From: Asanoa ferruginea
Lineage (GTDB): Bacteria; Actinomycetota; Actinomycetes; Mycobacteriales; Micromonosporaceae
NCBI RefSeq assembly: GCF_003387075.1
Contig: NZ_QUMQ01000001.1
Coordinates: 8,184,001-8,248,000, forward strand
DNA: 64,000 nucleotides
Reading direction: 5' to 3'
This document shows, one piece after another, positions 37,979-40,534 of the stretch. Position numbers and translations under genes: made by a program. Below the pieces are notes generated by a model. The model worked only from the letters and a program-made list of their open reading frames with translations, ran no database searches and had not been told where the DNA came from. Positions within the stretch are counted from its first letter, which is position 1; each line of letters begins with the position of its first letter.

Positions 37979-40534
37979 CTACCGACTCGCCCGCGCCACG
38001 CTCTTTCGCGTGGACCCACGACTCGTCGCTGACTTCCGCACCGCCGCCGTCGTCTTGCGCGACGTCGCCCCCCGCGCCGCCGAGCCCGCCTTACGTGCCG
38101 GACCTGTGGACTTCCGCGCGGCCGCGGCCGACCTACGCACCGAGCCAGCCGCGGTGGCGCGCGACCGAGCGGTAGTCGCCGCGCCAGCGCTCTTGCGCGC
38201 TGCAGACGCCATCTTCCGGGCCGCACTCGCCGGCTTCCGGGCCGCCGAGCCCGACTTACGCACAGTGCCCGTCGCGGTCCCCCGCGACTTGGCCGTCGTG
38301 GCCCGCGCCGCGCTCGTGCTCCGGCTCGCCCCCGACGTCGCCTTGCGCGCGGCACTGGTCGCCTTGCGAGCCGCACTCGCCGGCTTCCGGGCCGCCGAGC
38401 TCGACTGACGGACGGTGCCCGTCGCGGTCGCCCGCGACCTCGCTGTCGTGGCCCGCGCCGCGCTCGCGCTCTTCCGCCCCGCCGACGCCGACTTACGCAC
38501 CGCACCCGTCGCCGTCACCCGCGACCTGGCCGTCGTGGCCCGCGCCGCGCTCGCGCTCTTCCGCCCCGCCGACGCCGACTTACGCACCGCACCCGTCGCC
38601 GTCACCCGCGACCTCGCCGCCGTCGACCGCGCCGCGCTCGCGCTCTTCCGCGCCGCCGACGCCGACTTACGCACCGCACCCGTCGCCGTCACCCGCGACC
38701 TCGCCGCCGTCGACCGCGCCGCGCTCGCGCTCTTCCGCGCCGCCGACGCCGACTTACGCACCGCACCCGTCGCCGTCACCCGCGACCTCGCCGCCGTCGA
38801 CCGCGCCGCGCTCGTGCCCTTCCGCGCCGCCGACGCCGACTTACGCACCGCACCCGTCGCCGTCACCCGCGACCTCGCCGCCGTCGACCGCGCCGCGCTC
38901 GCGCTCTTCCGCGCCGCCGACGCCGACTTACGCACCGCACCCGTCGCCGTCACCCGCGACCTCGCCGTCGCCGACCGCGCCGCGCTCGTGCCCTTCCGCG
39001 CCGCCGACGCCGACTTACGCACCGCACCCGTCGCCGTCACCCGCGACCTCGCCGCCGTCGACCGCGCCGCGCTCGTGCTCTTCCGCGCCGCCGAGGTCCG
39101 CTTGCGGGCCGCACTCGTCGATTTCCGGGTCGCCGAGGTCGACTTACGCGCCGATGTCGACTTACGTCCCGTGGTCGAGCGGGCGCTGGTCGCTTTCCGG
39201 GTCGAGCCGGCGGACCGGCGGGCCGGACCCGTCGATGCCTTGCGGGGCGCGGTCGACTTGCGCGCCGTGGTCGACTTGCGCGTGGCCGGCGCCTTGCGCG
39301 CCGTCGACGACTTGCGTGGCGTCGCTGCCTTCCGGGCCCCGGTCGACTTCCGCGCCGTCGTCGACTTGCGGGCCGAGGTCGACTTGCGTGCCGTCGTGGA
39401 CTTGCTCGCCGCAGTCGACTTGCTCGGCGTCGCCGACTTGCGCGCTGCCGTCGACTTGCTCGCGGTCGCCGACTTGCTTGCGGTCGTCGACTTGCGGGCC
39501 GTCGCGGCCGTGCCGGTCGACTTGCGCGGCGTCGTCGACTTGCGGGCCGTGGACGACTTCGTCGCCTTGCGCGCCGTCGTCGACTTGCGGGCCGTGGACG
39601 ACTTGGTCGCCTTGCGGGCCGTCGATGTCTTGGTTGCCTTGCGCGGCGTCGAGGCGCTCGGGCCGGACGTCGACTTGCGGGCGCTCGATGACTTCCGCGC
39701 CGTCGATGCCTTGCGGGCGCCGCCGGTCGACGACGACTTGCTGGGCGTCGATTTGCGGCCGTCGGCGCTTGCCTTGGTCGCCGTGGTGCGGCCGCTGCGG
39801 GCCTGCGGGGACGCGAGCGCGGCGCCGATGATGCCCGCGTTGTTGAGCAGCATCGCCGGCACGACTTCGGTTTCGACCTCGATGCGCGACAGGAAGCTGT
39901 CGGACTTGCGGCTCACGCCGCCGCCCACGATGAACAGGTCTGGGCTGAGGAGTTGCTCCAGGTGCTGGAGGTATTTCTTGACCCGCTTGGACCACGCGCC
40001 CCAGCCCAGATCCTCGTCCTGGCGCACCCGGGCGGCCGCGCGCTTCTCCGCGTCGACGCCGTGCATCCGGATGTGGCCGAACTCGGTGTTGGGCACCAGC
40101 ATCCCGTCGATGAAGACGGCGCTGCCGATGCCGGTGCCGAAGGTCAGCATGACGACCTTGCCCTTGCGGCCTTTGCCGGCGCCGAAGGCCATCTCCGCCA
40201 TGCCGGCCGCGTCGGCGTCGTTGATGAGCGCCACCGGGCTGCGCAGCTCTTCGGCGAAGAGCTGGGCGCCGGGCGTGTTCATCCACGACTTGTCGACGTT
40301 GGCCGCCGTGCGGACAAAGCCGTTCTGGATAACGCCGGGGAAGGTGATCCCGACCCGCTCCGGGCGCCCGCCGAAGTGGCGAACCACTTCACCGACCGCC
40401 GAAACGACGCTCTTCACGTTGGAGGGTTGCGGCGTATCCACCCGGAAGCGTTCGCCGGTGAGCTCGCCCCGCCTGATGTCGACCATGGCGCCCTTGATGC
40501 CCGAGCCGCCGATGTCGATGCCGATAACCGCCAT
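37979..40534 (-). CDS. ppgK: Polyphosphate glucokinase fused to a ~600-residue basic repeat tail
   Basis: 851 residues; polyphosphate glucokinases are normally about 260. Residues 1-245 are a complete ROK-type enzyme that phosphorylates glucose with polyphosphate or ATP: GIDIGGSGIKGAMVD, GITFPGVI, catalytic NDADAAGMAEM, phosphate-binding TFGTGIGSAVF, EFGHI, and VGGGVSRKSD. From about 250 to the end the composition is Ala, Ser, Thr, Lys, Arg, in units like ARKST, resembling histone H1/AlgP-type tails. Residues about 485-690 contain seven near-identical 29-residue units beginning SRVTATGAVRKSASAARK. The frame is continuous from domain to tail with no stop or slippery site. The cationic tail could bind polyphosphate or DNA; that is inference. 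Confidence 0.9.
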   Translation of the reverse strand: MAVIGIDIGGSGIKGAMVDIRRGELTGERFRVDTPQPSNVKSVVSAVGEVVRHFGGRPERVGITFPGVIQNGFVRTAANVDKSWMNTPGAQLFAEELRSPVALINDADAAGMAEMAFGAGKGRKGKVVMLTFGTGIGSAVFIDGMLVPNTEFGHIRMHGVDAEKRAAARVRQDEDLGWGAWSKRVKKYLQHLEQLLSPDLFIVGGGVSRKSDSFLSRIEVETEVVPAMLLNNAGIIGAALASPQARSGRTTATKASADGRKSTPSKSSSTGGARKASTARKSSSARKSTSGPSASTPRKATKTSTARKATKSSTARKSTTARKATKSSTARKSTTPRKSTGTAATARKSTTASKSATASKSTAARKSATPSKSTAASKSTTARKSTSARKSTTARKSTGARKAATPRKSSTARKAPATRKSTTARKSTAPRKASTGPARRSAGSTRKATSARSTTGRKSTSARKSTSATRKSTSAARKRTSAARKSTSAARSTAARSRVTATGAVRKSASAARKGTSAARSATARSRVTATGAVRKSASAARKSASAARSTAARSRVTATGAVRKSASAARKGTSAARSTAARSRVTATGAVRKSASAARKSASAARSTAARSRVTATGAVRKSASAARKSASAARSTAARSRVTATGAVRKSASAGRKSASAARATTARSRVTATGAVRKSASAGRKSASAARATTARSRATATGTVRQSSSAARKPASAARKATSAARKATSGASRSTSAARATTAKSRGTATGTVRKSGSAARKPASAARKMASAARKSAGAATTARSRATAAGSVRRSAAAARKSTGPARKAGSAARGATSRKTTAAVRKSATSRGSTRKSVARASR
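38490..39098 (-). repeat. Seven 87-bp tandem repeats inside ppgK
   Basis: The plus-strand string GACTTACGCACCGCACCC recurs at 38490, 38577, 38664, 38751, 38838, 38925 and 39012, an exact 87-bp period (29 codons). Units differ by a few bases. More diverged copies flank the array on both sides. The TTA in the plus reading is TAA only out of frame; the coding strand stays open. Confidence 0.95.

Follow-up and report, generated by a model that had tools for sequence, protein, structure and literature searches.

Why would a polyphosphate glucokinase (PpgK), an enzyme usually 250–270 residues long, carry hundreds of additional, strongly basic residues at its C-terminus? The window, by which we mean the whole stretch of 64,000 nucleotides of Asanoa ferruginea DNA that was analysed (genome size 9.07 Mb), contains such a gene at 37979..40534 on the minus strand, an open reading frame of 851 codons with an ATG start. 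A sequence-only reading had placed the frame at exactly these positions and had proposed that it encodes a PpgK with a histone H1-like tail that tethers the enzyme to polyphosphate, or that acts on DNA. The analysis below shows that the tailed PpgK is real, present throughout the examined genomes of Asanoa, a genus of soil bacteria, gained twice and probably selected. How enzymes gain access to the polymer inside polyphosphate granules is little understood. An arm that can be removed, and that two lineages have while many of their relatives lack it, opens the question of access to granules and long chains to direct testing.

Catalytic core

Residues 1–242 (39809..40534, minus strand) make up a ROK-type PpgK core, as judged by NF045942, by 1woq_A and by AlphaFold2 and Foldseek. 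The NCBIfam equivalog NF045942 (polyphosphate--glucose phosphotransferase) matches residues 4–242 at 330.2 bits, where the curated threshold is 250, and the match takes in positions 3–241 of the 242 in the profile. The chain 1woq_A matches residues 3–241 with an E-value of 4.6e-79. These two matches bear out the earlier assignment to PpgK. AlphaFold2 was run on residues 1–300 only, with 8 sequences in the alignment, and gave a mean pLDDT of 77.9; the best Foldseek match of this model is again 1woq_A, superposed with an rmsd of 1.8 and a TM-score of 0.91 by target. A Pfam scan of the 851-residue protein at E-values up to 10 returned ROK (PF00480) alone and no CHAD domain. The tailed cores keep the columns that are at least 97% conserved among 156 distinct untailed cores, with the exception of A77, A238, A239 and one gap column. 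Judged by its sequence, the core is an intact and complete polyphosphate glucokinase, alike in family, fold and conserved residues to the polyphosphate glucokinase / polyphosphate-ATP glucomannokinase (NF045942; 1WOQ). The full protein lies far outside the usual length range, which does not define the family. The 1woq_A chain has 267 residues, and no comparable tail was seen in the PpgK relatives examined except those of a second genus, g229. Each of the six Asanoa genomes has one PpgK only (E ≤ 1e-60).

Composition and layout of the tail

The cationic tail comprises residues 243–851 and has a net charge of +157; together with the stop codon it occupies 37979..39808 on the minus strand, and it is delimited by composition and by low pLDDT in the modelled part. 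Its 609 residues, close to the "about 600" of the first reading, include 63 K, 95 R, 1 D and 0 E (R 15.6%, K 10.3%, P 2.1%). The ARKST-type repeats that had been described are present: ARK occurs 31 times and RKS 35 times, and an imperfect 18-bp array on the minus strand (39252..39605, 20.5 copies, 70% matches) encodes xARKST-like units. A second minus-strand array, of 87 bp (38370..39120, 8.6 copies, 93% matches), encodes 29-residue units to which, in a six-species alignment, nothing in the remaining five species corresponds. The best conserved tail block across the six Asanoa genomes, though not wholly invariant, is residues 410–441 (39212..39307, minus strand), STARKAPATRKSTTARKSTAPRKASTGPARRS. 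A DNA pattern of RK motifs at fixed spacing matches seven times in the window, always inside the tail, where shuffled sequences lead one to expect 0.02 matches. A 325-residue tail query against the six Asanoa genomes matched the ppgK loci alone among the 150 candidates scored per genome out of 518–648.

In the structural model pLDDT is below 50 at residues 246–294 and 297–300, the model ending at residue 300, and the tail is probably disordered. The label "histone H1-like" is a loose one. It holds for a strongly basic, low-complexity segment with low pLDDT where it was modelled; it does not hold for the details, as R exceeds K, proline is scarce and KPAA-type repeats are absent. As predicted from its sequence, the 851-residue protein is probably a working polyphosphate glucokinase with a polycationic disordered arm.

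The tail has the look of a coding frame, with a GC content of 52/86/90 at the three codon positions, compared with 66/45/93 for the core. An antisense gene across the tail (plus-strand open reading frame 38415-40721) was considered and set aside on the evidence for the minus strand. Stop counts alone do not dispose of it, since the antisense frame is open in five of the six Asanoa genomes, with one stop in the genome of the window. It was rejected because the minus-strand tail continues the frame of the enzyme core and has high third-position GC.

Occurrence in actinobacteria

A survey of tails in actinobacterial PpgK, which the sequence-only reading had suggested, shows a sharply bounded distribution: six of six Asanoa genomes, none of 113 others in the family and seven of seven genomes of g229. 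The tails of the six Asanoa genomes are 275, 285, 293, 296, 395 and 609 residues long, with net charges of +77 to +157. PpgK was found (E ≤ 1e-60) in 119 of the 354 genomes of Asanoa's family. A tail of at least 100 residues is absent from the 113 that are not Asanoa, in each of which every listed PpgK place either had a frame too short for such a tail or was retrieved and proved tail-less; the longest C-terminal extension among the retrieved loci was 42 residues.

Surveys at the levels of order and class detected PpgK in 292 of 397 and 227 of 394 genomes, respectively. Among the matches listed, 67 loci with frames of about 340 residues or more were retrieved, and in 66 of these at most 39 residues follow the core. 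The sole long-tailed locus, L125 in genome G921, has 254 residues after the core. G921 belongs to g229, a genus of another family in the same class, and all seven g229 genomes have a tail (172–404 residues, net +34 to +73). PpgK is present in 293 of the 341 genomes of that family; in the 29 loci from outside g229 that were examined among the matches listed, 13 further listed long frames having been left out, at most 45 residues follow the core. Across the phylum PpgK was found in 89 of 396 genomes, and none of the 13 long-frame loci retrieved among the matches listed has more than 26 residues after the core.

Two short basic ends were seen along the way. Four loci of family f32 (L157, L158, L159 and L161, genera g168 and g184) have in common a 29-residue Arg/Pro-rich PpgK C-terminus of net charge +8, which is perhaps a short form of basic tail. 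The untailed PpgK at L214 (G1585) ends in a short His/Lys-rich STKKKHHHHKH.

Origin of the two tails

In a tree of 67 cores, which we picked from the available loci, the tailed genes form two clades, and the starred branches force two changes; a single change occurs in 0% of 200 bootstrap trees. The tails also differ in kind. Those of Asanoa have 10–14% K and 13–16% R, and those of g229 are of an Arg/Ser/Thr type with 18–20% R and 0.5–3% K. Since the core tree forces two changes, and since tail compositions and conserved blocks differ, we take the tail to have been gained twice, independently. Transfer of the tail alone between the lineages would be compatible with the core tree and may have taken place. 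The stem branches of both tailed clades are long in this tree (0.53 and 0.37), which would suit a core that evolved rapidly at about the time the tail was acquired.

When Asanoa and g229 loci were compared, matches were limited to ppgK and to frames overlapping it. Fusion of ppgK with a neighbouring gene was considered as a source of the tail and found no support in the locus comparisons. Among the neighbours of Asanoa ppgK, a STAS protein alone was matched in sister loci of the Micromonosporaceae, weakly and in 2 of 18, and the helicase adjoining ppgK in g229 is also near ppgK in three of six sister loci. A search for viral relatives of the g229 core gave four pattern matches, none of which was confirmed.

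Charge conservation and probable selection

The tail could simply be a product of repeat growth, in which repeats of high GC content multiplied at the 3' end of ppgK and, without being selected, were tolerated. Several features are those expected of such growth. The tandem arrays are long, the 87-bp one being confined to a single species of six, and tail length is very variable. Substitution rates are less constrained in the tail than in the core: dN/dS is 0.22–0.55 over aligned tail codons and 0.12–0.17 in the core in Asanoa, and 0.30–0.72 and 0.20–0.42, respectively, in g229, the repeats making the tail alignments uncertain. Furthermore, repeats may grow readily in this part of the genome, since both window genes flanking ppgK have long low-complexity regions rich in G, A and S. 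One (34299-37181, minus strand) encodes 960 residues, with an A/E/L/R-rich N-terminal part and, after it, a low-complexity stretch of A, G, S and P that is several hundred residues long. The other (40610-43531, minus strand) encodes 973 residues and has no Pfam match; its N-terminal part is hydrophobic, and it has a region of G/S/A repeats containing a 24-bp array.

The charge of the tail nevertheless makes unselected growth unlikely in our view. The flanking low-complexity regions are almost uncharged, whereas the ppgK tail is strongly basic and nearly devoid of acidic residues, with D and E together at most 1% in every tail of Asanoa and g229. At one g229 locus four stretches adjoining ppgK are not of low complexity. 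Charge density is conserved where length is not: charge per residue is 0.246–0.287 in Asanoa (CV 0.06, against 0.36 for length) and 0.181–0.223 in g229 (CV 0.07, against 0.26). Lysine amounts to 10–14% of the Asanoa tails, encoded by DNA of 69–76% GC, compared to 1.5% in nine other long open reading frames of the window, which are putative genes. Finally, the tail was gained in two lineages, each time with a shift in the charge of the core.

This shift, the most telling sign of selection, is seen against a background of acidic enzymes. Untailed cores have a mean net charge of –8.4 (sd 3.7, n=156), and only 3 of the 156 are at 0 or above. The Asanoa cores range from –1 to +3, with –7 and –9 in their nearest sampled sisters, and the g229 cores from 0 to +7, with –2 to –10 in nine relatives. 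The coupling between core and tail charge rests on these two events, because core and tail charge are uncorrelated in the untailed set (Spearman –0.04) and neutral untailed cores do exist, two more of them among the 13 phylum loci. It does not look as though the shift stems from a generally basic proteome, since the PPK1 frames of the genus, a thin control of one protein, are acidic (–12 to –20) in five of six genomes; the sixth stands at +14, but this frame also spans much sequence upstream of the gene. In both lineages basic charge was gained at core positions 21, 41, 91, 183, 186 and 187. The gains, 18 and 15 in the two lineages, were counted by eye against relatives of our choosing, and the hypergeometric probability of the overlap runs from 0.0002 to 0.027 depending on the number of positions taken as variable, so that the common positions are suggestive only.

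Because the tail occurs in two genera and the core charge shifted in both, the observations argue for a selected polyanion-binding role, and selection of this kind probably fits better than neutral drift of repeats. To this extent the idea of a tether is partly supported, by a distribution of 6/6 in Asanoa, 0/113 in the rest of the family and 7/7 in g229 and by the core shift. The same evidence does not distinguish polyphosphate from DNA or RNA.

Candidate partners of the tail

PPK1 was found in all six Asanoa genomes, and the genus can therefore probably make polyphosphate. From its charge of +77 to +157, the disordered arm would be expected to bind polyanions in the cell, and it could hold the enzyme on polyphosphate chains or granules. 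Such tethering would raise the local concentration of substrate and the dwell time, with the ROK core meanwhile transferring terminal phosphates to glucose, and the tail would thereby alter affinity, processivity or localisation. The shift in core charge might then have removed acidic surface to which the protein's own tail would stick, or might have provided an additional substrate-binding surface. Propionibacterium PpgK reportedly has processive and non-processive modes, to go by the title of Pepin and Wood 1986.

Precedents come from three directions. In E. coli, proteins bind polyphosphate through disordered regions rich in lysine (PMC12345225). Lys-to-Arg changes in YihI severely reduced the polyphosphate gel shift (PMC12345225), which weakens a simple charge model, as the basic residues of the g229 tails are nearly all Arg. 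The Pseudomonas aeruginosa protein AlgP, whose C-terminus is H1-like, is associated with polyphosphate granules, and their spacing depends on that C-terminus (PMC9239181). The AlgP and Asanoa PpgK C-termini are both basic repeats and disordered, by prediction in PpgK, and that of AlgP is linked to granules; AlgP differs in that its repeats are of the KPAA type and its N-terminal domain is helical and not a kinase (PMC9239181), whereas the Asanoa tail has 2.1% P and more R than K. The comparison with AlgP made at first reading is apt for the mode of action, and we claim no homology. Actinobacterial TopA resembles the tailed PpgK in bearing C-terminal basic repeats on an enzyme with a long polyanionic substrate, and the lysine repeats keep TopA bound to its substrate and make it more processive (PMC7398561); the substrate of TopA is DNA, and its Lys repeats (about 70 residues in Streptomyces) contrast with the 275–609 residues of Lys, Arg, Ser, Thr and Ala in Asanoa. 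The CHAD domain and phosins likewise have a positive, polyphosphate-binding surface, on a folded helical domain (PMC8003754); the Pfam scan of the PpgK frame gave no CHAD match.

Given that polyphosphate is the enzyme's own substrate, and given the precedents for polyphosphate binding, AlgP, TopA and processivity, we favour tethering to polyphosphate with a longer dwell. That the tail keeps PpgK on polyphosphate, the candidate partner, has in our estimate a balanced chance of being right, and DNA is the main rival, and a serious one. The tail could bind DNA and place PpgK, perhaps together with polyphosphate granules, on the chromosome, in which case the partner need not be the substrate. Basic tails of actinobacterial HU, TopA and HrdB are thought to bind DNA, and all six Asanoa genomes encode an HU with a basic tail of similar style. 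This HU is alike in having a basic Ala/Thr/Lys tail behind a folded domain; the tail is dominated by lysine (Lys/Ala type) and the folded domain is DNA-binding, which sets it apart from PpgK. In local alignments the HU tail scores above 200 of 200 shuffles against each of the six Asanoa PpgK tails (z 3.7–6.7), and the PpgK tail may be derived from it. However, when this HU tail is aligned with two g229 PpgK tails, most shuffles are outscored too (z 3.8 and 2.9), so the likeness may be one of short-period style alone. In Streptomyces, similar repeats are carried by HrdB, Ku and HupS (PMC7398561), and when polyphosphate is lacking AlgP seems to lie with the nucleoid (PMC9239181). Since polyphosphate is what the tailed enzyme works on, and since its core has shifted in charge as well, we hold the nucleoid to be a rather doubtful partner, if a somewhat better supported account than unselected growth.

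The richness in Ser and Thr, 34–44% of the Asanoa tails and 47–52% of the g229 tails, would also suit a regulated switch, in which phosphorylation of the tail by serine/threonine kinases would neutralise its charge and set the enzyme free. These residues may be plain filler, and we give such a switch very little credence.

Returning to polyphosphate, a bolder and improbable extension is that in both actinobacterial lineages a polyphosphate-consuming kinase became a granule protein, its arm coacervating with polyphosphate and its core re-charged against self-binding. If so, the enzyme would be part of the granule matrix and consume the store from inside, and polyphosphate use would be coupled to granule architecture within one polypeptide. 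The tail may also offer a natural means of holding enzymes on cheap polyphosphate for the synthesis of glucose-6-phosphate. PpgK itself is a known enzyme, and its long cationic tail is apparently an undescribed variant: no paper on such a tail was found by title or abstract start in the open-licence literature. As the search covered that literature only, this is weak evidence of novelty.

Other features of the locus and genome

The N-terminal part of the 34299-37181 protein looks coiled-coil and DivIVA-like by eye, with no Pfam or NCBIfam match, and relatives in three congeners also have long low-complexity parts. Relatives of the 40610-43531 protein are frames of 677–906 residues in four congeners, with entropy that is not so low. 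A pentapeptide-repeat protein (PF13576) is encoded at 30437-31813 on the plus strand. In the genome of the window, the HU and PPK1 genes are about 6 kb apart (G000:C1:3982791-3989610, L176), and a similar spacing on a single contig is seen in all five other Asanoa genomes.
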